Below are positions 1 to 19,051 of a DNA stretch of 64,000 bases, piece after piece. The notes under the pieces were generated by a model that did no database searches, had not been told where the DNA came from, and was given only the letters and a program-made list of their open reading frames with translations. The stretch comes from Devosia nitrariae (lineage in GTDB: Bacteria > Pseudomonadota > Alphaproteobacteria > Rhizobiales > Devosiaceae), in the NCBI RefSeq assembly GCF_030160115.1, contig NZ_BSNS01000020.1, positions 62,001 to 126,000 on the forward strand, written 5' to 3'. The translations under genes were made by a program, and so were the position numbers. How positions within the stretch are numbered: the first letter of the stretch is position 1; each line of letters opens with the position of its first letter.

Positions 1-22
1 TACCAGATGGGGTGGACAGTTT

Positions 23-48
23 GAGCGGACCCGTTGCCGGGTCCGCTC
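23..48. terminator. Hairpin downstream of the GH172/ABC operon
   Basis: A perfect 10-bp stem (GAGCGGACCC, bases 23-32, with GGGTCCGCTC, 39-48) encloses the loop GTTGCC. It lies just past the stop codon of the minus-strand solute-binding protein gene, where an operon terminator would be expected. Neither side has a clear T-run, so it may only stabilise the transcript end. Confidence 0.45.
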
Positions 49-59
49 GGGGAGGAACG

Positions 60-1991
60 CTAATCGGCCGCAGCCGGCTCCAGCTGGGCGTTGATGAACT
101 TGAAGTTCGACCACCACCACCAGGGGCCTTCATAGTAATTGTCGGCCGAAGGATAGTTGGTCCAGTAGGTCTCGTTGACCGGCACGAACTTGGAGGTGCC
201 GAACATCTCGATCACCGGCAGGCCCTCGACCAGTTCCTTGAGGATGTCGGTGCCCAGCGGCACGATCCGTTCGTCATCGGCCGGGATCGCGCGGAGCTCG
301 TCGATAAGGGCGGAGAGCTCCTCGTCGACATAGCGGCCTTGGTTGTGCGAGGCGGGGGTGCCGTTCTCGCGCACATAGTCCTTGTGCCAGGCCTCCATAC
401 GCACGAACAGATCCGGCGTGATGGCGCAGGACGAACCCCAATAGGAGCCGACCTCGTAGTTGCCGGTGTTCTCGGCGGTAAAGAACGCGCCCGCCTGCAT
501 CTGCTGCACGTTCGTCGGAATGCCGAACTGCGTCCATTCGTTGGCGACCGCAAAGGCCAGGCGCTGTGACTGCACCTCGAAATCGGCCGGAGCGAGGATG
601 GTGATGGTGAACGGCGTTCCGTCCGGCTTCTTCCACTGGCCGCCGTCATTGGTGAAGCCGGCATCCTGCAGGAGCTTGGTGGCCTGCTCGGGGTCGTGCT
701 TCCACCAGCCGACGCCGAGCAGCTCACGCAGCGCCTCCGGATCCTCCGGAATCCCCTCGACGCCTTCCGACCGCAGTTGCTCGCCGAGCCGGATCGCATA
801 GTCCGGATCGAACGGCTTGTAGCCATCTTCGAGCGTGAACTCGGCCAGCCACTGCGACATCGGCTGGTGGTAGGTGTCCATCAGGACGCTGGTCGGCGGA
901 ATGGCGAGCGGGGAGGCACGCATCATGCCCGAGAAGGTAGCGATGCTGGCCCGTTGCGCATTGATGGCAAGCGCCAGGCCCCAGCGGGTCTGCGGATCGT
1001 CATAGGGCGCGATCGAGGTGTTGAAATGGATGCCGCGCTCGCACGGGTCATCGAGATTGGCATAGGGGAAGTCGGTGAACCAGCCGCGCACCTTGTCGTT
1101 CTGATTTCTGAGGATGTCGAGGCTTTCCGGCGAGATGTCGGTGAGGATGTCGATGTCGTTGGAGGCCATCGCCAGCACCCGCCGCTCCTCGGTGCCGTAG
1201 CTGCGGAAGAGCACGTATTGCGGCTTCGGCTCGCCGATCATCTGGCCGACTTCGGTATTCTGCCAGTCCTCGCGTTTCTCCCACAGGAACCAGGTGCCGT
1301 TCGGATCGTGGTCCATGTACTTGTAGGCGCTGATCGTCACCGGCGGGAAGTTGGCGAAGGTCGCCGGGTCCTCGTTCTCCCAGATGTGCTTGGGCACTAC
1401 GTGGAAGGCGTTACCGTAGATAACCGACCCGAGGACGATCGAGAGGCGCGGTGTCGGGCGTGTGGTCTCGATCTCGACCGTATGGTCGTCGACCTTGGTC
1501 ACCGAAGCGATGGCGTCGATGAAGGCGGCGCTGTAGGCGAGCGCCGGCGTATCGCGGATCATCTCGGCGGTGAACACCACGTCGTCGGCGGTGAAGGGCT
1601 CACCGTCGCTCCAGGTCAGCCCCTCGCGCAGCGGAACGCGGAAGCGGGTGAAGTCTTCGTTGAGCGCCTCCGGCATCTCGGCGGCGAGCCCGGGTATCTG
1701 CGTACCGGCGGCCGTGTCGATGTCGTAGAGCTGCGAGAGGGCGAGCTGGTGCATGCCGTGGTTCACGGTCACACCCTGCTGGTACATGTTCATGTTGGTC
1801 GGGTTGCCGACGCGGGCATTGAGCATGTCGACGATCAGCGTTTCGGCCCGCGGCGTGCCGACGTCGGTCATCTCCTGGGCGAATGCTGCCGGGGCGTAGC
1901 CGGCAAGCATCGTGCCGCCAAGTGCGGCGGCCATGCCGAGCGCCAGCAGTGTGCCTCTGGCGCGCTTGTCGTTTCGGGGGTCTCTGGTCAC
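60..1991 (-). CDS. ABC transporter substrate-binding protein, family 5 (oligopeptide/oligosaccharide type)
   Basis: This is the periplasmic solute-binding component (SBP_bac_5 family) of the ABC importer encoded by the four preceding genes. The GTG start at 1991 is preferred because GAGGAGAAC lies directly before it; the in-frame ATG at 2048 would overlap the upstream gene. The 643-residue product begins with a charged segment, a hydrophobic stretch and a likely signal peptidase site near residue 38 (AFA-Q). The family motif GLTWSDGEPFTADDVVFT follows in the first third. The protein is longer than typical DppA (about 530), as is common for members that bind plant cell-wall oligosaccharides. 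It is the last gene of the operon. The GH172 enzyme in the same operon suggests a carbohydrate rather than a peptide ligand; that is inference. Confidence 0.88.
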   Translation of the reverse strand: MTRDPRNDKRARGTLLALGMAAALGGTMLAGYAPAAFAQEMTDVGTPRAETLIVDMLNARVGNPTNMNMYQQGVTVNHGMHQLALSQLYDIDTAAGTQIPGLAAEMPEALNEDFTRFRVPLREGLTWSDGEPFTADDVVFTAEMIRDTPALAYSAAFIDAIASVTKVDDHTVEIETTRPTPRLSIVLGSVIYGNAFHVVPKHIWENEDPATFANFPPVTISAYKYMDHDPNGTWFLWEKREDWQNTEVGQMIGEPKPQYVLFRSYGTEERRVLAMASNDIDILTDISPESLDILRNQNDKVRGWFTDFPYANLDDPCERGIHFNTSIAPYDDPQTRWGLALAINAQRASIATFSGMMRASPLAIPPTSVLMDTYHQPMSQWLAEFTLEDGYKPFDPDYAIRLGEQLRSEGVEGIPEDPEALRELLGVGWWKHDPEQATKLLQDAGFTNDGGQWKKPDGTPFTITILAPADFEVQSQRLAFAVANEWTQFGIPTNVQQMQAGAFFTAENTGNYEVGSYWGSSCAITPDLFVRMEAWHKDYVRENGTPASHNQGRYVDEELSALIDELRAIPADDERIVPLGTDILKELVEGLPVIEMFGTSKFVPVNETYWTNYPSADNYYEGPWWWWSNFKFINAQLEPAAAD

Positions 1992-2016
1992 GTTCTCCTC
2001 CTGGGTGACTGGAAAT

Positions 2017-2913
2017 TTAAGAGTGTTCCTGGTGGTGCTTGTCCGCACTCTTGCCGTCCCGCGTGCGCTCGTGGGCGTAGTGGCGGTCGATTTCGTCGAG
2101 CTCGGTCCAGCGCGCCCCGATGGTCGGGATCGCCGCCATCAGTTCGCGCGTATAGGCCTCGCTGGGATAGGCGAGGATGTCGCCCGGCGCGCCCTGCTCG
2201 ACCACGCGGCCGGCATTCATGATGGCGACGTGGTCCGAGAGGTAATAGGCGGTCGACAGGTCATGGGTGATGTAGATGAACGATACGCCCTTCTCCTCGA
2301 CGATCTGCCGGAAGAGATTGACGATCGACATCCGCAGCGACGCATCGACCATCGACACCGGCTCGTCGGCGACGATCAGCTTGGGGTTGGGGATGAGCGC
2401 TCGTGCGACGCTGATGCGCTGCAGCTCCCCGCCTGAGAACTGCCGGATGTATTTGCCCCTGATCCGCTCATAGCTGAGGCCGACCGAGCGCAGCGCGGCA
2501 TCGGCCGCCTCGACCGCCTCGGCCTCGGAGCGCGCAATCTTGAGGTTGAGCGCGGTGCGAATGAGGTAGGTCCCGATGGGCAGGTACGCGCTGAACGCCT
2601 CGAACGGGTTCTGGAAGATCGGTTGCACCAGCCGGCGGAACTCGAGGTTGTCGATCCGCTCCTTCGACGTGCCGGTCAGCGGCCGGCCCATCAGTCGGAT
2701 CGTACCATCCGTCGGCTCGACCAGGCGCAGGACCATGCGCGCTAGGGTCGTCTTGCCCGACCCGGACTCCCCGACGATCGAGAAGACCTTGGGCGTCTCC
2801 GGCAGCGTGAAGCTGACGTCGTCGACGGCGTAGAATGGCTTGCCGCCAAAGATCCCGCCCCGGCGGTAGATACGGCCGATCCGCTCGACCTCGAGGATGG
2901 GTGCGCCGCTCAT
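2017..2913 (-). CDS. ABC transporter ATP-binding protein (DppF/OppF-like)
   Basis: This is one of two nucleotide-binding subunits that energise the importer at the inner face of the membrane. In 298 residues it has Walker A GESGSGKTT (about 48-56), a Q-loop glutamine near 101, the ABC signature FSGGELQR (159-166), Walker B LIVADEP (179-185) and an H-loop YITHDLS. It starts 4 bases inside the previous ATPase gene, which suggests translational coupling. It is a little shorter than typical OppF (about 320-330) because the C-terminal region after the H-loop is short. Confidence 0.92.
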   Translation of the reverse strand: MSGAPILEVERIGRIYRRGGIFGGKPFYAVDDVSFTLPETPKVFSIVGESGSGKTTLARMVLRLVEPTDGTIRLMGRPLTGTSKERIDNLEFRRLVQPIFQNPFEAFSAYLPIGTYLIRTALNLKIARSEAEAVEAADAALRSVGLSYERIRGKYIRQFSGGELQRISVARALIPNPKLIVADEPVSMVDASLRMSIVNLFRQIVEEKGVSFIYITHDLSTAYYLSDHVAIMNAGRVVEQGAPGDILAYPSEAYTRELMAAIPTIGARWTELDEIDRHYAHERTRDGKSADKHHQEHS

Positions 2914-3722
2914 CGCCGCGCCTCCGCCCGGGTGCCATCGATCCGAGGCAGCGACGCGATGAGCGTCTGCGTGTACTCGTGCTGCGGATTGGCGAAGATC
3001 CCCGCCGTCGGCCCCGCCTCGACGATCTTGCCCTGGTACATCACCACCAGCCGGTCTGTGATCTGGTAATGGACGCCGAGGTCGTGCGAGACGAGGACAA
3101 GTGAGTTGCGCTGCCGGCGCTGGATTTCGACCATCATCAGGAGAATCTTTTTTTGAACCACCACGTCGAGCGCCGTGGTCGGTTCATCTGCCAGGATCAG
3201 CCGCGGATTGACGAACGCGGCGATGGCGACCAGCACCCGCTGGCGCATGCCGCCGGAAAGCTGGTGCGGAAATGCGTCGAGCACGCTCTCTTCGAGCCCG
3301 AAGCCTTCGAGGAACGTCGCGATCCGGCGCCGCAGCTCCGCCCGGTTGCCTTGCCGCTCACGCTTCGGCAACCCGTCGACCACCTGCTTTTCCACTTTCA
3401 TCAGCGGGTTGAGCACGCTCATCGAGCCTTGCGGGATATAGCTGATCTGGTCCCACCAGAGCTGTCCGAAGTCGTGACTCTCGGCTTCGGTCACGGCGCC
3501 GGTTCCGTTCCTGGCGAACCGCCCCGTTATGGTGCCCGATGCGATGCGGAGGCCCGTGGAGAAATCCCCGTAGATCGCGCGCATCAGCGTCGACTTACCC
3601 GATCCCGATTCCCCGGCGATGCCGAGGATCTCGTTGTCGTTGATGGTGAGGTTCACCCTATCCACCGCCTTGACGAAGGCGGTCGTGCCGTAGCCGACGG
3701 TGACGTTGTCGACCTTGATCAT
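2910..3722 (-). CDS. ABC transporter ATP-binding protein (DppD/OppD-like)
   Basis: This is the second nucleotide-binding subunit of the same importer. Visible motifs in 270 residues are Walker A GESGSGKST (38-46), the Q-loop in YIPQGSMSVLNP, the signature LSGGMRQR (155-162), Walker B LILADEPTTALD and the H-loop VLVSHDLGV. The gene overlaps both neighbours by 4 bases. The protein ends soon after the D-loop/H-loop region and is about 50 residues shorter than usual DppD, so the C-terminal oligopeptide/dipeptide transporter extension is reduced. Confidence 0.92.
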   Translation of the reverse strand: MIKVDNVTVGYGTTAFVKAVDRVNLTINDNEILGIAGESGSGKSTLMRAIYGDFSTGLRIASGTITGRFARNGTGAVTEAESHDFGQLWWDQISYIPQGSMSVLNPLMKVEKQVVDGLPKRERQGNRAELRRRIATFLEGFGLEESVLDAFPHQLSGGMRQRVLVAIAAFVNPRLILADEPTTALDVVVQKKILLMMVEIQRRQRNSLVLVSHDLGVHYQITDRLVVMYQGKIVEAGPTAGIFANPQHEYTQTLIASLPRIDGTRAEARR

Positions 3723-4564
3723 ACGCTCATCCTCCGGGCTGCCGACCGCATGGAAAGACCCGAGGAAACGAGGAAGAGGCCGATAAACATGAGGACGATG
3801 GCAAGCACCGGCGCCCCGACCCAGACATACCGCTCGGCGAGCAGCGCCTGGTAATTGATCGCCCAGTAGATCATCGTGCCGAGCGTCGCCTGCTGCGCAC
3901 TCGAGAGCCCGATGACGGCCAGCGCCGACTCCGTTGAGATGCCGACCAGCACCGTGTTGATGAAGTTGGCCGCCGACCAGCCTGCGATATAGGGGAAGAT
4001 GTGGCGCACGAGGATCCGTACGCTCGATTCCCCCGAGAACCAGGCGACGTTGACGAACTCGCGCTCGCGCATGGTGAGGGCCACGGCGCGCACCTGCCGG
4101 GCAGGATAGGGCCAGTTGAAGAGCACGAGCGCGACCCCGACGATCGGCAATGCCAGTTGCCCGCCGAAGAGCGCAGCCATGAGGATGAGGATCGGCAGGG
4201 ACGGAATGCAGAGCAGCGCATCCATCAGGAACGACAGAACCCGGTCGAGCCAGCCCCCGGCATAGCCGGCGGCAAGACCGAGAAAGACACCGATCAGCGT
4301 TGAGAAGAACGCGACGAGCAACCCCAGGATCAGCGAGTTCCTGAGCGCCCAGGTGAGGAGCCAGAAGACGTCCTGGCCAAGGCTCGTAGTGCCGAGCGGA
4401 TAGGTCCAGCTCGGATCCTGGTTGCGCGGCGTCGTGTACCAGACGAGGGGATCGGCCGGCGCGAACCAGGGCAGGATCGCTCCGACCAGGACGAAGAGCG
4501 CGACCAGGAACAGCCCAAGATAGAGCCGGAACGGTGCATTTTCGAAGAGTTTAAGGATCCGCAT
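3719..4564 (-). CDS. ABC transporter permease (DppC-like)
   Basis: This inner-membrane permease of 281 residues has an N-terminal membrane segment (about residues 14-34), a periplasmic stretch with the family motif TYPLGTTSLGQDV, and a binding-protein-dependent transport domain with several membrane helices. The cytoplasmic EAA-type loop that docks to the ATPases is visible around AREREFVNVAW-like residues in the second half. The ATG lies 6 bases after the stop of the dppB-like gene and its end overlaps the next ATPase gene by 4 bases, so it belongs to one operon. Confidence 0.9.
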   Translation of the reverse strand: MRILKLFENAPFRLYLGLFLVALFVLVGAILPWFAPADPLVWYTTPRNQDPSWTYPLGTTSLGQDVFWLLTWALRNSLILGLLVAFFSTLIGVFLGLAAGYAGGWLDRVLSFLMDALLCIPSLPILILMAALFGGQLALPIVGVALVLFNWPYPARQVRAVALTMREREFVNVAWFSGESSVRILVRHIFPYIAGWSAANFINTVLVGISTESALAVIGLSSAQQATLGTMIYWAINYQALLAERYVWVGAPVLAIVLMFIGLFLVSSGLSMRSAARRMSV

Positions 4565-4570
4565 GTCGTG

Positions 4571-5569
4571 TCACCGGTGCCGGATGCGCGGGTCGATCAG
4601 CGGATAGATGAGGTCGATGACCATGGTCGCCGTGGCGACCGCGATAACCGAGAGGCTGATCGTGCCCATCAGCAGGTTGAAGTCGCCCTGCAGCACGGCC
4701 GTGTAGATGAGGAGCCCGAGTCCCGGATAGTCGAAGAGGATCTCGGTGATCAGCGAGCCGTTGAACATCAGGCCGATCTGGAGCGCGAGAAAGGTGATCT
4801 GCGGCAGGATGGCGTTGGGCAAGACATAACGGGCGAGGATGCGGCCATCGCCAAGACCCTTGAGCCGCGCATAGCGCACGAACTCCTCTTCCTTGAGTGC
4901 CGTGGTCTGCGCCTTGACGCTGATCACCCACCAGCCGAACACTACGATGACGATGGAGGCGCCGGGCAGGAACGAGTTCCATAGGATCGAGGTGACGAGG
5001 TTCCAGCTCCACGGCGCGCCGCGGATGGTCGTCGTCAGGGGGAAGATCTGCCAGATGTAGGAAAAGAGGATCGAGAGGACGAGCGCGAGGATGTAGTAGG
5101 GGATCGGATAAAGGCAGATAGCCACCCCCTCCATCACCCGCGACGAGGAGCTCTCCGGCTTCCAGCCCGAGAGCAGCCCGACGAAATTGCCCAGCACCCA
5201 GGCGATCAACGTCGAGGTCAGGAGCAGCCCGAACGTCCAGGGCAGGGCGTTCATGATCAATTCCATCACCGGGGTCGGGTACATCGAGAGCGACGGCCCG
5301 AAATCGCCAGTGAGCAGGATGCGCTTGATGAACGCCCAGTACTGCTCGAGGAGCGAGCCGCTGAGCCCGAACGTGTCGGCGAGCGACTGTCGCAGCGCGT
5401 CGACCTGCGAGGCGTCCATATAGGCGCCTTGCGAAGCGACCTTGGCCAGCATCGCTTCGATCGGATCGGTCGGCCCGAGCCGCGGCACGAAGAACAAGAC
5501 CGTCAGCCCGAAGACGACGACAAGGGCGTAGACGACGAGCCGTCCGGCAATGTAGCGCAGCAACCGCAT
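4571..5569 (-). CDS. ABC transporter permease (DppB-like)
   Basis: This is the first permease of the importer, 332 residues. It starts at MRLLRYIAGRLVV, with AAGGA about 8 bases upstream; a longer open frame to 5692 has no family similarity and overlaps the GH172 gene. The N-terminal helix is followed by the family motif VFGLTVLFFVPRLGPTDPI, a large periplasmic region, and a membrane domain with the cytoplasmic EAA loop (EEEFVRYARLKGLG). It lies 31 bases after the GH172 stop codon. Confidence 0.9.
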   Translation of the reverse strand: MRLLRYIAGRLVVYALVVVFGLTVLFFVPRLGPTDPIEAMLAKVASQGAYMDASQVDALRQSLADTFGLSGSLLEQYWAFIKRILLTGDFGPSLSMYPTPVMELIMNALPWTFGLLLTSTLIAWVLGNFVGLLSGWKPESSSSRVMEGVAICLYPIPYYILALVLSILFSYIWQIFPLTTTIRGAPWSWNLVTSILWNSFLPGASIVIVVFGWWVISVKAQTTALKEEEFVRYARLKGLGDGRILARYVLPNAILPQITFLALQIGLMFNGSLITEILFDYPGLGLLIYTAVLQGDFNLLMGTISLSVIAVATATMVIDLIYPLIDPRIRHR

Positions 5570-5600
5570 CTTCTGGTCCTTCCGCTTGGCCTCCGTGCCC

Positions 5601-6716
5601 TCAGATGATCTCGAGGTAGTCGCGGTCGGGCAGCTGCGGGAACGGCGCGGTCGGCAGCGTCTGGTACCAGTAGGCGACCGAGGCGATGTCATCCTGCAGC
5701 GGCAGGTAGCGCCGGTTCTGCTTCTCCGTGCGCCAGCCGAGCGCCTGGATGGTTACCCGCAGGTCCTGGTCGAACCGGATCGGGTCCGGGATGTGCCAGC
5801 GATACATGCCGAACCGCTGCTGCGACTGATAGGTTCCATCCGGCCGCAACACCTGCGGCAGGCCGGCGTAAGGGGTGCTGAACTCTCGATAGGCGCTCGT
5901 CATGTTGGCGTCGACGACGCCTCCGTCGAAGTTATAGGCGCCGCAGAAATAGTCTTCCGTGCCGGTGCCGCAGATCGTCGGGAATTGCCCGTCGCCGTCC
6001 ATGAAGAATTTGATTTCGCCTTCGCCCCACCAGCCCGAATTGTTGACGCCCCAGGCCATGTAGGTGCCCACATACTGGCCCTGGCCTTTGACGCCATCGA
6101 GGATCGTGTAGTCCTCTTTGAAGGGCAGGGGGTTGGTGCGGCGGAACTGCGCGTGGAAATAAGCCGCGTCTTCCGGCACATCGTTGAGGGCGTAGTTGAT
6201 CTGGTAGTAGATGATGCCGCGATCGTCCGGATCCCGGTTCTCGATGGTCACCCGCGCGCTCTTGCGGAACGGCATCTGCCAGTAGCAATTGAACGCGCGC
6301 CCCGGATTGACGCAGACGGCGAGCGACGTCACTTGCGCAAACCGATTCCAGCCCGAGCAGAAGAAGTCGCCGACCGGCGCCTCGACCGACGGGTGTTCCT
6401 GGTCGTCCCAATAGATGCGCAGGATCAGGTCCCGCCAGCGCAGGTTCGCCGTGGTCAGCCAGATCTGCTGGATGGCGCCTGGTCCCTCGATATCGGCGAG
6501 CACCCGGGTTTCTCCCGGCTGGATCTCGATGGACGGGGAAACCTTCCAACCCTGGCCGAGCCCGCGCGCGCAACCGGCGCCGGTACCCTCGGTTGCCATG
6601 CCGCCCTTGCCCTTCTCGCCGGTGAAGTTTTCCGGCGAGATCGAGCGGGTTTTGGCATTCGACAGGCGGTAGATGTTGCCGAGGTTCACGTCGAGGCCGG
6701 AGAAGGGTGCGTTCAT
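5601..6716 (-). CDS. DUF2961 / GH172 family glycoside hydrolase, cytosolic
   Basis: A 371-residue protein of the DUF2961 family, now glycoside hydrolase family 172, whose characterised members act on fructofuranosides, difructose anhydrides or arabinofuranosides. Hallmarks are the N-terminal SRISPEN-like and TGEKGKGG motifs (about 24-39), the segment GEGEIKFFMDGD (231-242) and GTGTEDYF (250-257); conserved acidic residues in the last two are the likely catalytic pair, an inference from family alignments. No signal peptide is visible, so it should act in the cytoplasm on imported substrate. The ATG at 6716 is chosen because upstream residues are unlike the family. It is the first gene of the ABC operon and diverges from a LacI regulator. 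The exact sugar cannot be told from sequence. Confidence 0.85.
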   Translation of the reverse strand: MNAPFSGLDVNLGNIYRLSNAKTRSISPENFTGEKGKGGMATEGTGAGCARGLGQGWKVSPSIEIQPGETRVLADIEGPGAIQQIWLTTANLRWRDLILRIYWDDQEHPSVEAPVGDFFCSGWNRFAQVTSLAVCVNPGRAFNCYWQMPFRKSARVTIENRDPDDRGIIYYQINYALNDVPEDAAYFHAQFRRTNPLPFKEDYTILDGVKGQGQYVGTYMAWGVNNSGWWGEGEIKFFMDGDGQFPTICGTGTEDYFCGAYNFDGGVVDANMTSAYREFSTPYAGLPQVLRPDGTYQSQQRFGMYRWHIPDPIRFDQDLRVTIQALGWRTEKQNRRYLPLQDDIASVAYWYQTLPTAPFPQLPDRDYLEII

Positions 6717-6944
6717 GGGAAAACCTGTTCGGTTCAGGCGGCAGTGCATTGCCCGCCCGCGAAAGATGCGAATTGGATGAAGTTTGGAGTGGCGATCGGC
6801 GCGACCCGGTCGATAAAGGGGCGCTCTAGGGCCCGCGCTTAACGCGCTCTGAATGCAAGGCTCTCCTTTTTTTGCGAATCGACCGGCATGAATCCGGGCG
6901 CACTTCGAGTGCCCGTGGCCGTTCCGGCTCATCAGGCGAGACTC

Positions 6945-6972
6945 AACATAACAGGCAAATTCTCGTTTGCAA
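6945..6972 (-). promoter_or_regulatory. Candidate sigma70-type promoter of the GH172/ABC operon
   Basis: Read on the minus strand, TTGCAA (6972-6967) and TATGTT (6950-6945) are separated by 16 bases. The -35 hexamer is itself part of the operator array, and one operator copy (6955-6970) sits in the spacer. This geometry fits repression by a LacI-family protein. It is a prediction only. Confidence 0.45.
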
Positions 6973-7007
6973 ATGCATTTGCAAATCAATTTGCAAATCG
7001 ATTTTGC
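6955..7007. promoter_or_regulatory. Overlapping array of LacI/PurR-type operators
   Basis: Half-sites GCAAAT and ATTTGC overlap head to tail. Sites are GCAAATTCTCGTTTGC (6955-6970), GCAAATGCATTTGC (6969-6982), GCAAATCAATTTGC (6981-6994) and GCAAATCGATTTTGC (6993-7007). The centres of the last units are about 12 bp apart, and 6966-6985 forms a perfect 20-bp palindrome. The half-site GCAAA/TTTGC matches the PurR-type operator core, and the neighbouring LacI protein carries a PurR-like recognition helix (TTVSHVLN). Confidence 0.75.
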
Positions 7008-7092
7008 ACCCCGGGGTTAGCTGTGATACCCAACAATTGCCCGGTGGCGGAACAACGACGGCGGGCAGGTGGCCAATGTCAGCGGATGCGTA

Positions 7093-8097
7093 ATGACGAC
7101 CATTTCGAAAGTCGCCGAGCGGGCAGGGGTCTCGCGCACCACGGTATCGCACGTGCTCAATCACGCCGACCGCGTTTCGGTGCACCTGCGCGAGCGGGTG
7201 ATGCAGGCCGTCGAGGAACTCGGCTATGTGCCCAACCCGCAGGCCCAGAGCCTTCGGACTGGGCGCACCAATATCGTTGCGCTCCTCATTCCCGACATTC
7301 GCAACCCTTTCTATCCTGAGCTCGTCAAGACCGCCCAGTCCGACCTCGAGGCTGTCGGCCTCGACACCATGATCTTCAACTCGGATGTACCGGGGGGGCA
7401 CCCGCACGAGCACAACCGCCAGTACCTGCGCCAGATCCGCAACAAGAGGGTCGACGGCCTGATCGTCGGCGATTTCGCCCTGCACGGGATGCATGACGAG
7501 CTATTGAAGATCGACATGCCGGCGGTGTTCATCGGCCAGCTCAACAACCACGCCGTCGACAGCATCAAGGTGGACGACTATGGCGGGGGCTACGCCATGG
7601 GAAGCTACCTGGCGCAGAAGGGACACCGGCGCGTCGCCCATGTCACCGGGCCGACCTATTTCGCCGAGGCGATGGCCCGCGCCGACGGTTTCGAGCAGGG
7701 TCTTGCCGACCACGGAGCCGCCGCCGATCCGCACCTGCGCTACGAGGGAACCTACCTCGAGCCATCCGGGAGCGGAGCGGTGGAATGGCTGCTCGACAAT
7801 CATGCAGGACGCATGCCCTCGGCGATCTTTTTTGCCAACTACCTGATGGCCATCGCGGGCCTTGCTGCCCTCCACGACCGCGGTTTGCGCGTCCCCGACG
7901 ACATTGCTATTTGCGTTTTCGGCGATCAGCCGGCCATGCAGTATGTCCGGCCGCGCCTCACCCGCGTTGGCGTTGCCCCCTCCACGCTTGCCCACCGCGC
8001 CTGCGCCATGCTCCTGGAACGCCTGAGCGGCGGCTATGTCGGTGACCCTCGCGCCGAGGTTCTCTCAGGCACGTTGCAGCCATTCGAGAGCGCCTGA
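7093..8097 (+). CDS. LacI family transcriptional regulator
   Basis: This 334-residue repressor has an N-terminal LacI helix-turn-helix (ISKVAERAGVSRTTVSHVLN, residues 4-23), a hinge helix region with the NPQAQSLRTGRT motif, and a periplasmic-binding-protein-like sugar-sensing domain (VALLIPDIRNPFY onward). The start is MTTISKV at 7093, since family members begin right before the helix-turn-helix; no strong ribosome binding site is visible. It diverges from the GH172/ABC operon and lies 5' of the CUT1/mannosidase operon. The recognition helix resembles PurR (TTTVSHVIN), which suits the GCAAA/TTTGC array upstream, so control of the GH172 operon and itself is the best guess. Confidence 0.88.
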   Translation: MTTISKVAERAGVSRTTVSHVLNHADRVSVHLRERVMQAVEELGYVPNPQAQSLRTGRTNIVALLIPDIRNPFYPELVKTAQSDLEAVGLDTMIFNSDVPGGHPHEHNRQYLRQIRNKRVDGLIVGDFALHGMHDELLKIDMPAVFIGQLNNHAVDSIKVDDYGGGYAMGSYLAQKGHRRVAHVTGPTYFAEAMARADGFEQGLADHGAAADPHLRYEGTYLEPSGSGAVEWLLDNHAGRMPSAIFFANYLMAIAGLAALHDRGLRVPDDIAICVFGDQPAMQYVRPRLTRVGVAPSTLAHRACAMLLERLSGGYVGDPRAEVLSGTLQPFESA

Positions 8098-8143
8098 ATA
8101 CAGTCCCGGCCTCGATCTGATCCCACTATGGCGGGTCAGCACC

Positions 8144-8202
8144 TTGCAACGTTGCATTTTTTCTCTCGCTGCCGGCGGTCGAGGGTATTGCAACGTTGCA
8201 AT
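8144..8202. promoter_or_regulatory. Pair of LacI-type operators upstream of the sugar ABC operon
   Basis: TTGCAACGTTGCAT (8144-8157) and the perfect 16-bp palindrome ATTGCAACGTTGCAAT (8187-8202) have the central CG typical of LacI-family operators. Their centres are 44 bp apart, about four helical turns, so both could be bound on one DNA face. The half-site (TTGCAAC) differs from the GCAAAT array at 6955-7007. Which regulator binds is unknown: the adjacent LacI or one encoded elsewhere. Confidence 0.7.
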
Positions 8203-8288
8203 TTATCGGCTTAGCTGCTCCCCGCGTCGTGAGGGCGGCGCGTGCAATCGCCGCGCGGCAAGCGCGGTCGACCCTGAGGGAGAAATTC

Positions 8289-9614
8289 ATGATCGATCGG
8301 TATCTGTTGACCACCGTCACTGCGCTCTCGCTCGTCGCGGCGGCGAGCGTCCCGGCGCGCGCCGAGGTTTCCATCATGTACGCCGAGTGGCTGGCTTCGC
8401 TCGTCGAGCCGGGTATCGAGGATTTCGAGGCCGAAACCGGCGAGACGGTCAACGCCGTCAAACTGCCCGGCGCGGGCTACGACGAGCGTATCGCGCTCGA
8501 CCTCTCGGCCGGCACCGCCGCCGACGTCGTACAGATGGACAGCTTCATGGTGTCCGAACTCGCCTCCGCCGGCTATCTGCACCCGCTCGACGAGCAGGCG
8601 GCCGGCTGGGATCAATACCAGTATTACCTGCGGGGGCTGCTCGACGTCGCCTCCTATGAAGGTCAGGTCTATGCGCTGCCGACCGATACCGATGTGCGCA
8701 TGCTCTGGTACAACAAGGCCGTGTTCGAGCAGGCGGGAATCCCCGTGCCGTGGGAGCCCAAGACCTGGCAGGACATCATCGATACCGCCCAGACCATCAA
8801 GGACGAGACCGGCATAGACAATGCCTTCCTGTTGCCGGCCGGCACCAAGCAGAGCGAGGCGACCACAATGCAGGGCTTCTACATGGCCCTGCTCGGCGCC
8901 GACGTGCCCGAAGACGATCGCAACCGCTTGCGCAACTGGGAGGAGGGCAAGTGGATCGGCGATAGCCCGGCAATCCGGCGCACGCTCGAGCTCTATCACG
9001 ACGTCTATATCGAGCGCGAACTCGCCTCCGCCGACATCAACTATGCCGCCGATGTCGGCGCGGCCACGCGCGAGGCGTTCCTGGCCGGCGAGATTGGTAT
9101 TCTTGCCAGCGGCTCGTGGGAAAATGTCTGCATGTGGGACTGCAACGGCGACAATGTGCCGAGCCAGGAGGAACGCGACGAGATCATGGGCTGGACGCCC
9201 TGGCCCGGTTCGGGCGAGCCTGGCGCCAAGGCGACCACCAACATCTCTGGCGGCTGGACCATCGGCATCAAAGCCAATGCGGCCGACAAGGATCTCGCCC
9301 TGCAGCTGGTGACCACCATCTTCGATGCCGGCAACTTCGGCGAATGGACCGTAGCTAACCGCCGCATGGCCGTGCGCACGGACATCGCTGAATCCGAGGC
9401 CTATGCCTCAGACCCATATCTGGCCGAAGCCACCAAGCTCGCTGCCGATACCACCGGCCGTGACACCTATCCCGGCTACCAGGTCGTCTCCGCTTTCGTC
9501 CAGCAGATGACCGCCGACATCCTCGAAGGTCTCAGCGTCGAAGACGCCGTGGCCGAGTATCACGCCGCCCTCGTCGACGAGTTCGGCGAAGAGAACGTGA
9601 TCACTTACGAATGA
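8289..9614 (+). CDS. CUT1-type sugar ABC transporter substrate-binding protein
   Basis: This 441-residue periplasmic protein (extracellular solute-binding family 1) starts at MIDRYLLTT, with GAGGGAGAAA upstream, and carries a signal peptide cleaved near residue 25 (ARA-E). Family features are AGYDERIALDLSAGTAADVVQ, the YALPTDTDVRMLWYNK motif and a C-terminal region rich in aromatic contacts. Two cysteines four residues apart (NVCMWDCNGDN, around 280) may form a disulfide or bind calcium with the DCNGDN acidic cluster. It begins the operon behind two LacI operators. The downstream alpha-mannosidase and amino-sugar genes suggest a mannose- or hexosamine-containing ligand. Confidence 0.9.
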   Translation: MIDRYLLTTVTALSLVAAASVPARAEVSIMYAEWLASLVEPGIEDFEAETGETVNAVKLPGAGYDERIALDLSAGTAADVVQMDSFMVSELASAGYLHPLDEQAAGWDQYQYYLRGLLDVASYEGQVYALPTDTDVRMLWYNKAVFEQAGIPVPWEPKTWQDIIDTAQTIKDETGIDNAFLLPAGTKQSEATTMQGFYMALLGADVPEDDRNRLRNWEEGKWIGDSPAIRRTLELYHDVYIERELASADINYAADVGAATREAFLAGEIGILASGSWENVCMWDCNGDNVPSQEERDEIMGWTPWPGSGEPGAKATTNISGGWTIGIKANAADKDLALQLVTTIFDAGNFGEWTVANRRMAVRTDIAESEAYASDPYLAEATKLAADTTGRDTYPGYQVVSAFVQQMTADILEGLSVEDAVAEYHAALVDEFGEENVITYE

Positions 9615-9630
9615 CCTCCTGACCTCCCGA

Positions 9631-9676
9631 GGCGGCGGCGTTCTGGGCAGAACGCCCCGGCGCCGCCGCATTTTTT
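9631..9676 (+). terminator. Strong hairpin with T-run after the binding-protein gene
   Basis: An inner hairpin (GCGTTCT, GGGC loop, AGAACGC) is extended by GCGGCG paired with CGCCGC, and followed by six T (9671-9676). It lies 17 bases past the binding-protein stop and before the permeases. A partial terminator or RNA-stabilising structure here would give much more binding protein than permease, as known for malE-malF type operons. Confidence 0.7.
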
Positions 9677-9728
9677 CCTGATCCGCATGGAGGTCGCATG
9701 GTCTCGTATCGGTGTGAGCCCTTGAGAA

Positions 9729-9747
9729 GGACGAGCGAGGCTCGTCC
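9729..9747 (+). promoter_or_regulatory. Hairpin abutting the permease start codon
   Basis: GGACGAGC (9729-9736), loop GAG, GCTCGTCC (9740-9747) form a perfect 8-bp stem ending at the base before the ATG. It could mask initiation or bring the upstream GAGAAGG closer to the start codon in space, since the linear distance is too long for a normal ribosome binding site. Confidence 0.5.
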
Positions 9748-10653
9748 ATGCTGAAAACCTCCCCCATACTAAAAACCTCACCCATGCTCTCGTCGGGCCG
9801 CTGGTTGCTGCTGGCCGGCATGGTGCCGGCGCTCGTCCTCATCGCTGCGCTTCTCTATTTCACCTTCTGGGCCTTCAGCTTCAGCTTTACCGATCTCGAG
9901 CTGGTCGGGCGCAAGTCCGTCGAGTGGTCATGGGTCGGCCTTGACAACTACGAGCGTCTCTTTACCCGCCGCGGCTTCCTCGAGGCGCTGTGGACGACGG
10001 GCATCTTCGTCTTCTTCTCGGCAATCGTCGGTCAGAGCGTGATCGGTTTTGTGCTCGCCGCGGCGCTGCGCAACGACAATTCGGGCGTGCGGCCGGTCCT
10101 CGAGGTCGCCATCATGCTCGGTTGGCTCCTGCCCGACATCGTTGCTGCCTTCCTCTGGTCGGCAACGACCTCCGAGACTGGGCTTATCAACGCACTTATC
10201 GTCGTGCCCTTAGGATTCGAGCCGATCAACTTCATCAATTCCTATGCGCTACCGGTCGTCATAGTTGCCAATATCTGGAAAGGGACCGCCTGGTCCTATC
10301 TTCTATTCTCGGCCGCCCTCGATGCTGTCCCCCGCGAGGTGGTCGAGGCCGCCAAGGTCGATGGCGCGACGCCGCTTCAGCGCGTTTGGCGCGTCATCCT
10401 GCCGATGATCCGCCCGCACATCGCCACCAACCTCCTGTTCATCACCATCTGGACCTTCACCTATTTCCCGCTGATCTATGCCATGACCGGCGGTGGCCCG
10501 GGCCGTCAGACCACGGTGCTCGCCATCTTCCTCTACGACCAGAGCTTCTCAATCGGTAAGCTCGGCTATGGCAGCGCCATATCAGTTGCGATGCTCGCCA
10601 TCGTCGGCGTCCTCTCGCTCTTTTATCTGCGCATGCTCCGGGAGCCGAAGTGA
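9748..10653 (+). CDS. CUT1-type sugar ABC transporter permease (MalF/UgpA-like)
   Basis: A 301-residue inner-membrane permease with about six membrane segments and the EAA loop (EVVEAAKVDGATPLQRVWRVILP, split here as EVVEAAKVDGATP and QRVWRVILP) that docks the ATPase. The first 12 residues contain a tandem LKTSP repeat encoded by two near-identical 18-base units, so initiation at the ATG at 9784 is also possible. It follows the binding protein after a terminator-like hairpin and is coupled to the next permease by an overlapping stop/start. The CUT1 family imports di- and oligosaccharides. Confidence 0.88.
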   Translation: MLKTSPILKTSPMLSSGRWLLLAGMVPALVLIAALLYFTFWAFSFSFTDLELVGRKSVEWSWVGLDNYERLFTRRGFLEALWTTGIFVFFSAIVGQSVIGFVLAAALRNDNSGVRPVLEVAIMLGWLLPDIVAAFLWSATTSETGLINALIVVPLGFEPINFINSYALPVVIVANIWKGTAWSYLLFSAALDAVPREVVEAAKVDGATPLQRVWRVILPMIRPHIATNLLFITIWTFTYFPLIYAMTGGGPGRQTTVLAIFLYDQSFSIGKLGYGSAISVAMLAIVGVLSLFYLRMLREPK

Positions 10654-11468
10654 TGGGACCCAATGCCACTGCCTCGCGCGTCAACGCGCTGATGCTCGCC
10701 TTTGTGGCGATCATCTGGGTCAGCCCCTTCGCCTGGCTGATCCTCAACGCCTTCAATCCGGCCGCAACCGGCCGGCTTGTGCTGCCGCAGACGATCGGCC
10801 TCGATAATTTCGCCGATGCCCTTTCCGGCAATGCCGGCCGCCAGTTCATCAATTCCATCATTCTGGCCGCTGGCACGGCGACGCTGACGGTTGTCGTCGC
10901 CATAGCCGCCGCCTATCCCCTTTCGCGGCTGAACATTCCCGGGCGCAACGCGTTCCTGTGGTCGCTGGTGCTGTTGCGCATGCTGCCGGCGACCGGTGTC
11001 ATCGTGCCTCTCTATTTCACCGCCCGAAACACGGGCCTTCTGAATACCGGGGGCGTCATCGTCGCGCTCACCATTCTCAACCTGCCGTTCACCCTGCTGC
11101 TCATGAAGAACTTCTTCGACACGGTTCCCATAGAGTTGGAGGAGGCCGCGTTCGTTGAAGGTGCGTCCCTCTGGCAGATTATCCGGCGGATCGTCCTGCC
11201 GCTCTCGCGCGCCGGCATCGCAGTTGTCTGGTTCTTCTCCTTCACGGGAGCTTGGAATGAGTTCTTGCTGCCCTTAATCTTCGCGCGCACCGAGAGTGGC
11301 TTTCCCATGTCGGTCGGCCTCTACGCCGCCTTCGGTCAACAGGGAGCGATCCAGTACGGCTTCCTTGCAGCTTTTTCGATCGTTTACGCAGCGCCGGCGG
11401 TCGGCGTGTATTTCCTGTTGCGGCGAAACATGAACACGGGTTTCGCCGGTGTTGGAGTTAAAGGATGA
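10653..11468 (+). CDS. CUT1-type sugar ABC transporter permease (MalG/UgpE-like)
   Basis: A 271-residue permease with six predicted membrane segments and the EAA loop ELEEAAFVEGASLWQIIRRI. The ATG at 10653 shares its A with the stop codon of the previous permease, and the end overlaps the mannosidase gene by 4 bases. No ATP-binding subunit gene follows, so the complex probably borrows a shared MsmK/UgpC-type ATPase from elsewhere in the genome. Confidence 0.88.
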   Translation: MGPNATASRVNALMLAFVAIIWVSPFAWLILNAFNPAATGRLVLPQTIGLDNFADALSGNAGRQFINSIILAAGTATLTVVVAIAAAYPLSRLNIPGRNAFLWSLVLLRMLPATGVIVPLYFTARNTGLLNTGGVIVALTILNLPFTLLLMKNFFDTVPIELEEAAFVEGASLWQIIRRIVLPLSRAGIAVVWFFSFTGAWNEFLLPLIFARTESGFPMSVGLYAAFGQQGAIQYGFLAAFSIVYAAPAVGVYFLLRRNMNTGFAGVGVKG

Positions 11469-14400
11469 GTTTCGTGAATCCCCTTGCGCAGCGCCTCGGC
11501 CTTCTGACCGATGATACCAAGCAGGAAGGCAAGCTTGCCCGCCTCTGCGACGATCTCGCCCGCAAAATCCTGACCCCCGTGCCCGGGGAAGTCGCTTGGC
11601 GCTACAATGAGGACGTGGAGAACGCCGGTGAGGCGCTCGGCGCCGACTGGCGCGGCTGGCCGGAGTTCACCCAGCGTACCGTCTGGTCGAAGAAGCAGGG
11701 CCACACCTGGTTCGCTGCCGAGATCGAGGTGCCAGCGGAAGCCGCCGGCAAGACGTTCGTCCTGCGCTTCACTTCGCAATGGCAGAACCGTCCGGGTTCG
11801 ACCGATCCGCAGTGCCTGGCCTATCTCGACGGGCACATCGCCCAGGCGCTCGATGGCAATCACAACGAGCTTGTCATCGCTCGTGATGCCAAGGCAGGTG
11901 AGAAGCACACACTCCTCGTCAACGCCTTCACCTTCTTCGACCGCCCGCTCGCGGGCTTCCACGTCGAATACCTGGTGCGCAACGAGCAGGTCGAGCAGCT
12001 CTATTATGACCTGGTGACTCCATTCCAGGTCGCCACCTACCTGCCGCAGACCGACGCGCGCCGCCACGCCATCCTCAACCTCGTCGACAGGGCCCTGCGC
12101 GCTCTCGACCGACGCGGCGCGGTCACACCTGAATTGGAGGCTTCCCTCAGCGAAGCGGAAAAGATTGCCGCCGAAATCTATAAGCTCACCGATACCGAGG
12201 TGCAGCCGGTCATCACCGCCGTCGGCCACACCCATCTCGACGTCGGCTGGCTTTGGCGCGTCATGCACACCCGGGACAAGACTGGGCGTTCGTTCGCCAC
12301 GGTCCTCAATCTCATGTCCGAGTACCCTGGCTTTGTCTTCATGTACAACCAGTCGGTGCTGTTCAACTTCATCAAGACCGACTACCCCGAGATCTGGGAA
12401 GGGTTGAAGAAGAAGGTCAAATCCGGCCAGTTCGAGATCGAAGGGGCAATGTGGGTCGAGCCGGACGTCAACATCGTTTCGGGCGAATCCCTTGTCCGCC
12501 AGATCATGCGCGGCCGGCGCTTCCATATCGAGGAGTTCGGCGTCACGCCCAAATGCGTATGGCTTCCCGATACCTTCGGCTATTCGGCCAACTTGCCCCA
12601 GATCATGGAAAAGTCCGGGCTCGACTACTTCGTCACCTCCAAGCTCTCCTGGAACGATACCGACCGGCACCCTTACGATACGTTCTTCTGGCGCGGCATC
12701 GACGGCACCGTCACCAAGGCCCAGTTGATCACCGCCCAGAGGATGGAGAGTGATGCGATCTTCACCACCTACAACTCCGATCTTTCGGTCAGCGAGGTGA
12801 TGGGCGCCTGGAAGCGCTACGAGCCGAAGGCCGTCAGCGACGAGGTCCTCGTCTGCTATGGCTACGGCGACGGCGGCGGTGGCCCGACCCGCGCCATGAT
12901 CGAGCGCGGCCTGCGCCTCGAGCGCGGCATTCCCGGGGCCCCGAAAGTGCGGATGGAAGGCCTCGTTCCCTTCCTCGATCGTCTCGGTGAGCGCATGGAG
13001 GAGAACGCGAACCGCTTCCCCACCTGGAACGGCGAGCTCTACCTCCAGTATCATCGTGGCACGCTGACCTCGGTCGCCAAGAACAAGGCCAACAACCGCA
13101 AGGCCGAACGGCGCCTGCGTGAGCTCGAGTTCCTCTCCAGCATGGCCTTTTCCCAGGCCGGCCTCGCTTACCCGGCCGAAAAGCTCAACGAGTTCTGGGA
13201 GCTGGTGCTGATCAACCAGTTCCATGACATCCTGCCCGGCACCTCGATTCCCGAGGTCTATGCCGACTCCGATGCCGAATACGGCATGCTGTTCTCGACC
13301 CTCGACTCCGCCAACGGCCCATGGGTCACCGCCGCCCGGGCGGCCAGCAAGCCGGCTGCCGGCGAGCTGCGCCTCCTCAACTTCACCTCGCAGGACTGCT
13401 CGGGCGAGCTCGCCGCCCTTGAAGGCCCGGGTCTTGAGGGTAAAGCGCTTGCTCAGGCCGGAAAGACCGCGCCGCTGCAAAAGCTCGTTGGCGCCGCCGG
13501 TGAAACCCGCTACGCCGCCCCGGTAGCAACGCTTCCGGCATTGGGTTGGGCTGGCGCCGGTCTCTCTGCCGGCGGTGCGGCCCCGGCGACGAACCTGTCG
13601 GTCTCCAAGACCCATCTCGAGAACGCCCTCATCCGCGTCGGCTTTGACGACAAGGGCGAGATCACCTCCATTGTCGACAAGGCCAGCGGCCGCGAGTTGA
13701 TTGAGAACGGCAAGACCGCCAATCGCCTCGTTGCCTATGAGGACAAGTCGATGAACTGGGACGCCTGGGACATCGACTGGTATTTCGAGGAGCAGTCCTG
13801 GCCGCTCGCCGACGGGCAGACCAAAATCGAGGTGGTCGAAGAGGGACCGTATCGGGCCGCCATCCGCGTCGAGCGCAGCTACCAGAAATCCCGCTTCGTG
13901 CAGGTCATCTCGCTCGTTGACGGCGTCCGGCAGGTCGAGTTCGACACCTACATCGACTGGCACGAGCGCCAGACGGTGGTCAAAACGCTATTCCCCTTCG
14001 ACATGAACGTTTCGGAGATTCGTTCGGAGATCCAGTTCGGCCACGTCAAGCGCGCTACCCACCGCAACACCAGCTGGGACCGCGCCCGCTTCGAGGCCTC
14101 CATGCATCGCTGGGTCGATCTTTCCGAACCCGACTTCGGCGCCGCGCTGCTCAACGACTGCAAATATGCCTATGACGCCGTCGAGCAGCTCGTCCGACTG
14201 ACCCTGGTGCGCGGCTCGACCCACCCCAGCCCCGACGCCGACATCGGCGAGCATCGCCTGCGCTATGCGCTCTTCGTGCACGAAGGCCTTTCAGACCTCC
14301 ACGAAGTGCACCGCGCCGCCGAACGGTTCAATAACCCGGTCGCCGTCCTCGGCGACGTAGCAGGCGCCGGGCAGGGGGCCGATGCCACCTTCTCGTTCGC

Positions 14401-14653
14401 CAGCGTCGATGTGCCGACCGTCACCATCGAGACGGTCAAGAAGGCCGAAAAGAGCGATGCCCTGGTCCTGCGTGTCTTCGAGCACGCCAACCGTCGCGCC
14501 AACCCCACCATCCGTTTCGGCATGCCGGTGAAGTCCGCTCGGCTCGTCAATCTGATGGAGGAGGGCGGCACGCCGCTCGAGGTTGAGGACAACACTGTCC
14601 GCCTTGCCCTGCGGCCGTTCGAGATCGCAACTGTCATGGTCGAACTCGCCTGA
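11465..14653 (+). CDS. Alpha-mannosidase, glycoside hydrolase family 38
   Basis: This 1062-residue cytosolic enzyme hydrolyses terminal alpha-mannosides. The GH38 zinc and active-site motif HTHLDVGWLWR lies near residue 256, and the nucleophile aspartate is in WLPDTFGYSANLPQ near 369. The middle-domain segment EFWELVLINQFHDILPGTS and the C-terminal beta-rich region (ITSIVDKASGREL) are typical. The length matches the long bacterial/fungal vacuolar Ams1-like branch. No signal peptide is seen. It overlaps the permease by 4 bases and has GTTAAAGG upstream, so it is co-transcribed with the importer and should act on imported glycan. It may alternatively cleave a mannosyl conjugate other than an N-glycan. 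Confidence 0.93.
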   Translation: MSFVNPLAQRLGLLTDDTKQEGKLARLCDDLARKILTPVPGEVAWRYNEDVENAGEALGADWRGWPEFTQRTVWSKKQGHTWFAAEIEVPAEAAGKTFVLRFTSQWQNRPGSTDPQCLAYLDGHIAQALDGNHNELVIARDAKAGEKHTLLVNAFTFFDRPLAGFHVEYLVRNEQVEQLYYDLVTPFQVATYLPQTDARRHAILNLVDRALRALDRRGAVTPELEASLSEAEKIAAEIYKLTDTEVQPVITAVGHTHLDVGWLWRVMHTRDKTGRSFATVLNLMSEYPGFVFMYNQSVLFNFIKTDYPEIWEGLKKKVKSGQFEIEGAMWVEPDVNIVSGESLVRQIMRGRRFHIEEFGVTPKCVWLPDTFGYSANLPQIMEKSGLDYFVTSKLSWNDTDRHPYDTFFWRGIDGTVTKAQLITAQRMESDAIFTTYNSDLSVSEVMGAWKRYEPKAVSDEVLVCYGYGDGGGGPTRAMIERGLRLERGIPGAPKVRMEGLVPFLDRLGERMEENANRFPTWNGELYLQYHRGTLTSVAKNKANNRKAERRLRELEFLSSMAFSQAGLAYPAEKLNEFWELVLINQFHDILPGTSIPEVYADSDAEYGMLFSTLDSANGPWVTAARAASKPAAGELRLLNFTSQDCSGELAALEGPGLEGKALAQAGKTAPLQKLVGAAGETRYAAPVATLPALGWAGAGLSAGGAAPATNLSVSKTHLENALIRVGFDDKGEITSIVDKASGRELIENGKTANRLVAYEDKSMNWDAWDIDWYFEEQSWPLADGQTKIEVVEEGPYRAAIRVERSYQKSRFVQVISLVDGVRQVEFDTYIDWHERQTVVKTLFPFDMNVSEIRSEIQFGHVKRATHRNTSWDRARFEASMHRWVDLSEPDFGAALLNDCKYAYDAVEQLVRLTLVRGSTHPSPDADIGEHRLRYALFVHEGLSDLHEVHRAAERFNNPVAVLGDVAGAGQGADATFSFASVDVPTVTIETVKKAEKSDALVLRVFEHANRRANPTIRFGMPVKSARLVNLMEEGGTPLEVEDNTVRLALRPFEIATVMVELA

Positions 14654-14689
14654 CCGACCGTCGGTAGAATTGGCATCGCATATGGCCCG

Positions 14690-14893
14690 CCCCCTCTCCC
14701 CTTGAGGGAGAGGGACCGATTTTTCGCGTTCAGCGAAAATCAGGGTGAGGGGTTGCGATGCTGCAAAAAGCACAAGGTCGGGTGCGTTTTGCATCATCGC
14801 AAACCCCTCATCCGCCCTCTCGCCTGGGCGAAGCCGGAGCTTCGCTACGGCGTAGCCAGGGTCGGGCACCTTCTCCCTCAAGGGGAGAAGGGA
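14690..14893. repeat. Complex intergenic inverted-repeat element
   Basis: The outer arms carry CTCCCCTTGAGGGAGA near 14695-14712 and its exact reverse complement TCTCCCTCAAGGGGAG near 14873-14890. Inside, GAGGGGTTGCGATG pairs with CATCGCAAACCCCTC, and smaller hairpins (GATTTTTCGCGTTCAGCGAAAATC split as GATTTTTCGC and GCGAAAATC; CGAAGC with GCTTCG) nest further. Such CCCTC/GAGGG-armed elements are widespread intergenic repeats in Hyphomicrobiales. A related but different copy lies between pyrE and acpS. Confidence 0.75.
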
Positions 14894-15110
14894 ACACCGT
14901 GCCTGTGCCCGGCTCCGTGCCCCATGCGATGGCCCCTCGGACAGGCCGTTCGTTTTGCCGCATCGGTAGTTCGGCAATTTCGATAATGCCAAAAAAATAC
15001 CACTTGTTTCAGCCATGTGGACGATGGCAGCATGGCGAGGTCAAGAGCGGCCAAAGCCTTGCAGCAAATGCGTCTCGTGACCCCGGAGTCTTCGGCGGCG
15101 CAGGCCCGGG

Positions 15111-15139
15111 TTGAGAAAATGGTATCTTATTGGTATCAT
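15111..15139 (+). promoter_or_regulatory. Candidate gntR promoter overlapped by TGGTATC direct repeats
   Basis: TTGAGA (15111-15116) and TATCAT (15134-15139) are 17 bases apart. TGGTATC occurs at 15120-15126 and again at 15131-15137, one helical turn apart, covering the spacer and the -10 region. GntR/HutC-type regulators often bind TGGT-containing repeats, so autoregulation is plausible but unproven. Confidence 0.5.
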
Positions 15140-15235
15140 TGGCCGAGACTCGCCCTGCGTGATCCGGCGTCTTCCGGTATTGCAATGGCCGCGGTATTGA
15201 GGCATCGCCGGCCACGTGCCAGGCGGGGAGGATCG

Positions 15236-18209: not shown

Positions 18210-18213
18210 GGGT

Positions 18214-18957: not shown

Positions 18958-19051
18958 GCTGCCGTCCCTTCTTGTCATGTCTGCAAGCCTTCCGCCAGAA
19001 ACTTCCCGCCGGCTCTCCGGCGGGCGACAGAACGCTGGTCTTCGTTTTAGT

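Follow-up and report, generated by a model that had tools for sequence, protein, structure and literature searches.

Introduction

Descriptions of D-arabinan breakdown exist for Microbacterium, Dysgonomonas and mycobacteria (PMC10509167, PMC10115798). In Microbacterium arabinogalactanolyticum the D-arabinan locus encodes EndoMA1/2, the GH172 enzyme ExoMA1 and the GH116 enzyme ExoMA2, and the model proposed for it is one of import followed by exo-cleavage in the cytosol (PMC10509167). Here we consider a locus of Devosia nitrariae lying at one end of a stretch of 64,000 nucleotides (the window; G000:C20:62001-126000, within a genome of 5.54 Mb), in which six genes at 60-6716 of the minus strand, encoding a GH172 enzyme, two permeases, two ATPases and a family 5 solute-binding protein (SBP), diverge from a gene for a LacI-family regulator.

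This locus shares with the Microbacterium system a signal-peptide-less GH172 of the ExoMA1 kind, an ABC importer with its SBP and a GH116 enzyme in the genome, but differs from it in that the importer is of the Opp type, the SBP belongs to family 5 and not to SBP_bac_8, the GH116 gene is unlinked and GH183, the family of the endo-enzymes encoded in Microbacterium, was not found (PMC10509167). Similarly, the alphaFFase1 operon of Bifidobacterium dentium has the same plan of LacI, GH172 and ABC importer, but includes a GH32 gene, and its enzyme carries Gly299 and Lys147 and serves another class of substrate (PMC8605356). The D-arabinan polysaccharide utilisation locus (PUL) of Dysgonomonas gadei likewise relies on GH172 exo-alpha-D-arabinofuranosidases (DgGH172a-c, with GH183; PMC10115798), yet it is a PUL of the Bacteroidota, and DgGH172c is distant from the window GH172 (37% over 276 aligned positions). 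On the side of the importer, the family 5 sugar-binding proteins 4pfu (mannoside), 1zty (chitin-oligosaccharide) and 6epy (alpha-galactoside) are all among the structure matches of the window SBP, albeit at low similarity. To our knowledge none of these three is paired with GH172. A survey of 471 regions already mentions DUF2961 genes with ABC transporters and binding proteins close by (PMC8812541), and the accessible literature on GH172/DUF2961, mostly outside subscription journals, describes no Opp-type importer with GH172, a combination that an earlier note on this DNA did not know as characterised; nor did the literature, again mostly outside subscription journals, hold anything on D-arabinan with Devosia or on D-arabinofuranosidase with oligopeptide. 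The locus is a new combination of known parts.

We propose, with a probability of about 0.6 and on the strength of sequence comparison, that the operon is a regulon for scavenging D-arabinofuranosyl oligosaccharides of the D-arabinan type, the kind present in the arabinogalactan and lipoarabinomannan of mycobacteria. Short alpha-D-arabinofuranosides would be caught in the periplasm by the family 5 SBP and imported through the Opp-type permeases with their ATPases, after which the cytosolic GH172 would remove terminal alpha-D-arabinofuranose (alpha-D-Araf) units by a retaining mechanism. The beta-D-Araf ends would be left to an ExoMA2-like GH116, whose gene lies about 165 kb off. Transcription in both directions would be repressed by LacI, bound to TTTGCAAA cores in tandem, until an inducer related to D-arabinose arrives. 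Since no GH183 was found in its own genome, the strain would need other organisms to release the oligosaccharides. Such a system suggests that soil Alphaproteobacteria use D-arabinan, taking it up with an importer of the peptide type, and it provides a regulon for which a candidate operator is defined; if the proposal is true, it would supply a D-arabinofuranose sensor and a binding protein for D-Araf oligosaccharides, as well as a test of whether a mycobacterial cell-wall sugar is a shared resource in soil.

The GH172 enzyme

The GH172 gene (5601-6716, minus strand) encodes a predicted cytosolic exo-alpha-D-arabinofuranosidase of 371 amino acids (aa), without a signal peptide as judged by eye, whose PF11175 match covers the full domain (340 bits, profile 1-235/235, E 7.8e-102). 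Its closest solved protein is ExoMA1 (8ic8, E 8.1e-136; 59.5% identity, 207/348 positions), whereas alphaFFase1, the difructose anhydride enzyme, gives E 3e-40. In a FastTree phylogeny of 101 sequences, rooted by hand on distant solved members, 95 fetched GH172s, forming the group of the window protein, cluster with ExoMA1 (support 0.89), and alphaFFase1, DgGH172c, BACUNI_00161 and the sequences fetched from L058 and L109 lie outside.

The alignment, in which the residue numbering agrees with that of the papers (ExoMA1 Asn253, alphaFFase1 Glu270, Glu291 and others), retains in the window enzyme all five of the pocket residues Glu270, Glu291, Asp292, Trp267 and Tyr187 (alphaFFase1 numbering), the roles of which are described in PMC8605356. 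Two further positions bear on specificity. Asn253 of ExoMA1 blocks the C1 hydroxymethyl of fructose, and alphaFFase1 has Gly299 there, admitting fructose (PMC10509167); the window enzyme has Asn. Lys147 of alphaFFase1 is required for inulobiose and not for p-nitrophenyl alpha-D-arabinofuranoside (pNP-alpha-D-Araf; PMC8605356), and its equivalent in the window enzyme is also Asn, in a column that borders a gap and is aligned less surely. Asn at the former position recurs in 91 of 108 aligned GH172 rows from the fetched loci (88 with a Tyr-Asn pair), of which one is a misread fragment and most come from the 80 best matches, such that these counts describe relatives and not the whole GH172 family. 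From residues and kinship, the window GH172 is most likely an exo-alpha-D-arabinofuranosidase of the ExoMA1 type. The earlier note had left its substrate open between fructofuranosides, difructose anhydrides and arabinofuranosides; the residues, the closeness to ExoMA1 and the GH116/GH183 links set out below narrow the choice toward alpha-D-arabinofuranosides.

The operon and its importer

The remaining genes of the operon, all on the minus strand, specify a complete Opp/Dpp-type importer, comprising the BPD_transp_1 permeases B (4571-5569; PF00528 E 2e-31 on the longer open reading frame (ORF), the gene itself starting at an ATG internal to that ORF, with MRLLRY) and C (3719-4564; PF00528 E 2e-19), the ATPases 1 (2910-3722; PF00005 E 3.1e-25, oligo_HPY above cut-off) and 2 (2017-2913; PF00005 E 1e-23, oligo_HPY below cut-off) and an SBP_bac_5 protein assigned to the sugar-type subfamily (60-2048; PF00496 E 7.4e-48), with a Sec-type signal peptide ending AFA-QE by eye. 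The ATPase and SBP genes overlap and the remaining gaps are of at most 31 bases, a layout that fits one transcript. The divergent LacI gene (7093-8097, plus strand; PF00356 E 2e-19, PF13377 E 5.9e-27) starts at ATG 7093, with GTG 7069 as a possible alternative, and its product carries a helix-turn-helix and a sugar-binding domain, with a palindromic operator candidate nearby. ORFs and Pfam matches therefore bear out the gene set and order given in the earlier note, a GH172 gene heading the importer genes opposite a LacI gene; its ORF starts were too long and have been trimmed (the GH172 gene starts at ATG 6716, a 462-aa ORF from 6989 being an overlong call), and its boundary of 7092 falls where the LacI gene begins, leaving that gene outside. 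Scans for sigma-70 promoters and terminators (6500-8400) and for Rfam families (1-20000) gave no matches.

The best solved match of the SBP is the mannoside-binding protein 4pfu (E 1.2e-30 with the single sequence, 2.7e-47 with a profile), next to which stand two related chains. No subunit reaches the cut-off of an NCBIfam peptide or nickel equivalog (for the ATPases, among the best 25 of more than 180 rows each), the best row for the SBP giving 54 of the 650 bits required. A search across the class (385 genomes, E no higher than 1e-120, scoring three candidates in each) returned three further SBPs, of which two belong to the own genome (39%, 38%) and one to G277 (36%); their clusters contain two apiosidase-like (GH140-like) genes, a GH39 gene and a gene for an alpha-L-arabinofuranosidase C-terminal-domain protein. 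Because the closest SBP relatives found sit in glycosidase clusters, a sugar is the likely ligand. The signal-peptide pattern, the mannoside-binder match and these relatives all favour the earlier suggestion that the importer delivers a short furanoside to a cytosolic GH172. An AlphaFold model of the SBP (19 sequences; mean pLDDT 58.1) was too poor for a fold search. Elsewhere in the genome, L192 (G000:C7:515500-535400) encodes a family 5 SBP, again of the sugar type, together with a DeoR regulator and two enzymes of the DUF5060/apiosidase-like kind; transketolase halves and an FGGY kinase lie on the opposite strand.

The putative operator array and its link to GH116 and GH183

Between the LacI and GH172 genes three exact TTTGCAAA cores, starting at 6966, 6978 and 6990 and thus spaced by 12 bp, form a putative LacI operator array (6966-6997). 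A pair of such cores 12 bp apart, with up to two mismatches, occurs genome-wide only in this gap (two overlapping sites; reversed-pattern control 0). The pair 24 bp apart is exact only there and unique at up to one mismatch, with two further genome sites appearing at two mismatches (control one). Scored as two cores 12 or 24 bp apart with at most one mismatch, the array is present in 17 of the 18 loci of the window's type (type 1), L035 being the exception, as well as in L033 and L058, and a related array occurs in four paralogous loci (L054-L057); it was not found in 17 other scanned stretches (L002, L162, L051-L053, L062, L094, L163-L172). LacI would, we infer, bind and repress at these cores.

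The array also links the operon to predicted enzymes of D-arabinan breakdown. In G037 (L049) the window-type operon, with its LacI and array, adjoins an SBP1-MalFG-GH116 set, itself preceded by a second array with one mismatch, and in G001 (L058) LacI and SBP1-MalFG-GH116-ATPase-GH183 have the array between them, a GH172 gene standing behind LacI. The two regulators are 70% (L049) and 69% (L058) identical to the window LacI and group with the type-1 LacIs (0.99), the GH32-linked LacIs being separate and 52% identical. The L049 GH116 matches the exo-beta-D-arabinofuranosidase 8ic6 (E 1.1e-112), and that of G001 is 78% identical to it; the G001 GH183, with a likely signal peptide by eye, matches the endo-alpha-D-arabinanase 8hhv (E 1.4e-41), and the distant GH172 of G001 has its best matches in 4kq7 and 8ah3, the latter from D. 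gadei.

The own GH116 gene (G000:C20:233459-234382) lies on the same contig about 165 kb from the GH172 operon, in a cluster that has a LacI of its own and an ATPase of the MalK type (by Pfam) and, between them, permeases and an SBP assigned by position only. Its product, which with that of L049 was the only GH116 scanned with Pfam, has ExoMA2 as best solved match (8ic6, E 6.2e-119), followed by beta-glucosidases from 5.5e-20. The equivalents of Glu431, His446, Arg483 and Asp557, residues of ExoMA2 named in PMC10509167, are kept by hand count with an offset of 4.

In a sample of 151 genomes (the own and 150 relatives), GH172 is present in 11 of 13 with strong GH116 matches, as against 28/151 overall (Fisher p 8e-8), and type-1 GH172 in 8/13 (p 2e-5) or, within an approximate genus set, 6/9 (p 0.003); for strong GH32 matches the type-1 figure is 6/18 (p 0.017), with p 0.33 within the genus set. 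These sets were compiled by hand, the weak-GH116 genomes G009, G021, G062 and G099 being dropped.

Conservation of the locus

In a sample drawn across the class PF11175 is present in 7 of 385 genomes, own included. The complete set of GH172, two permeases, two ATPases and SBP5 occurs in 17 of the 28 GH172-bearing genomes, own included (in G039 with broken frames), with LacI divergent beside it in all except L049, where it runs in the same direction; such recurrence in 16 other genomes of 151 is more than chance. The LacI belongs with the GH172 operon, because it is kept beside it while the SBP1-MalFG-GH38 set on its other side recurs only in L034. Among the other bearers, a contig of 7.5 kb truncates the type-1 operon of G081; G080 and G085 have MalFG-type permeases beside GH172 in place of the Opp set; G019, G026 and G124 have neither type adjoining, G019 and G026 carrying a different ABC ATPase upstream; G009, G025 and G033 carry a second type (importer proteins 28-40% identical, GH172 62-63%); and G041 gives only fragmentary GH172 matches. 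G066 carries both types, and G051 has type 1 plus a type-2-like GH172 that adjoins GH32 on a contig of 3.6 kb showing no importer.

Farther afield, a Variovorax metagenome-assembled genome (L094) contains the same operon (importer genes and SBP 52-65%, GH172 70%) with a different LacI (30%). An aldo-keto reductase beside that operon was set aside, its match in the own genome (44% full-length) being too weak to count; that match sits two genes from an AraD1-family gene. At least 589 stretches in nucleotide records match the GH172 gene, and in L061-L140 the identity is 66-78% (best segment, except L061 and L066) across more than ten phyla by record titles, including Armatimonadetes, Chloroflexi, Planctomycetota and Acidobacteriota, with no widely shared neighbours, the Bradyrhizobium loci having common neighbours among themselves. 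Plasmid records with a GH172 match are mostly of Klebsiella (42/61); on the Klebsiella pneumoniae plasmid NZ_CP070108.1 (L185) a GH172 of 41.6% lies with an oligosaccharide MFS transporter and a LacI between IS elements.

Points of difficulty and alternative explanations

Several observations weigh against D-arabinan scavenging. In the enzyme, Trp252 of ExoMA1 (Trp298 of alphaFFase1) is replaced by Tyr, with uncertain effect, because alphaFFase1 W298A retains 16.5% of its pNP-alpha-D-Araf activity (PMC8605356). As to regulation, L044 has a 66% identical LacI without an array and L035 a 68% identical one with a degenerate array, and the own GH116 cluster has no array and another LacI (30% identical). 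Of the pathway, GH183 (PF13810), missing from the own genome, exceeds its cut-off in only one of 151 genomes (G001), and the L-fucose/D-arabinose isomerase family occurs in 0/151, and L-fucose isomerase was set aside as the D-arabinose step. The co-occurrence p-values are only a guide, because kinship is uncorrected. Finally, the wider clade has mixed neighbours: in a survey of at most two same-strand genes per side (gaps of no more than 400 bases, proteins of no more than 900 aa), no Pfam family occurred more than twice among 89 scanned of 109 found (15 short and five longer ones, including two GH172 copies and a Variovorax permease, being left out), although GH116 genes near GH172 in L133, L127 and L073 (cluster c16) fell outside these limits; in Parabacteroides, a GH172 of 60% identity is next to GH140.

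One alternative is that the substrate of the GH172 is a different furanoside, such as an apiofuranoside or some plant or microbial glycoside of soil or water, the D-arabinan link holding only in relatives. A clade across more than ten phyla is wider than the obvious D-arabinan users, Tyr occupies the Trp252 position in most aligned rows, and to the Parabacteroides GH140 may be added the closest SBP paralogue in the own genome, which clusters with apiosidase-like genes. Even so we consider this unlikely, given the array and orthologous LacI in common with the GH116/GH183 locus and an L-fucose/D-arabinose isomerase adjoining two distant members (2/89 neighbours).

Also unlikely is an importer for difructose anhydrides or other alpha-fructofuranosides, opened by GH172 and finished by a distant GH32, as in B. 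dentium, whose alphaFFase1 operon (LacI, GH32, DUF2961, ABC) is of similar plan (PMC8605356). The paralogous LacI-SBP5-Opp-GH172 operon of L054-L057, in which GH32 follows GH172 in L056 and L057, is probably an alpha-fructoside system in the same genus, and by coordinates the second-type GH172 adjoins GH32 in 5/5 genomes (a fragment in G009); with the Asn noted below, this is the main difficulty for D-arabinan scavenging, another being the one true GH32 of the own genome (C7, E 1.9e-71). ExoMA1, too, retains weak alpha-D-fructofuranoside activity (PMC10509167). Moreover, the GH172 of L054-L057 has Asn in 4/4, for which reason Asn versus Gly was rejected as a separator of the GH32-linked paralogues; because they share it, the residue by itself leaves room for a role on fructan and is not decisive, and close relatives are likely to use fructan. 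Against this, the window GH172 is far nearer ExoMA1 than alphaFFase1, with the Gly299 and Lys147 equivalents both Asn, no GH32 match lies beside type-1 GH172 in 20/20 genomes (by coordinates; the G081 contig is only 7.5 kb), and the array links instead to GH116/GH183.

Peptide or nickel import is the task of many SBPs of family 5 and of many Opp ATPases. That the present importer carries such ligands, its linkage to GH172 being incidental, is very improbable, for although the NCBIfam near matches are mostly of these kinds, they fall far below cut-off, the best solved SBP match is a mannoside binder, 17 genomes retain the importer together with GH172, and the three nearest relatives found for the SBP are in glycosidase clusters.

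Neighbouring genes

Beyond LacI, on the plus strand, lies a set at 8283-14653 comprising SBP_bac_1, MalF- and MalG-type permeases (named from ORFs, not Pfam) and a GH38 alpha-mannosidase closest to the Ams1 type (7vqo, E 1.1e-145). The set may share the LacI transcript or regulon, and is lineage-specific: among the relatives' loci only L034 has it, as one gene (the SBP, 90%) at a contig start. D-arabinan scavenging might be extended to a two-importer system for mannose-capped D-arabinan fragments from the lipoarabinomannan of mycobacteria, which we regard as unlikely; Opp and GH172 would then handle the alpha-D-Araf chains, a CUT1-type importer and cytosolic GH38 the alpha-mannose caps and the unlinked GH116 the beta-D-Araf ends, the strain living on pieces of cell wall set free by other degraders of D-arabinan.

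About 440 bp past the end of the SBP gene, on the same strand, a gene at L002:13947-15620 (G000:C20) encodes an MGH1-like glycoside hydrolase domain (PF22422), with a homologue only in L034 among the compared loci. At 15017-18209 of the window, ORF translations show a GntR-like regulator, a SIS-domain protein and a NagA-like deacetylase in a row, resembling an amino-sugar operon.

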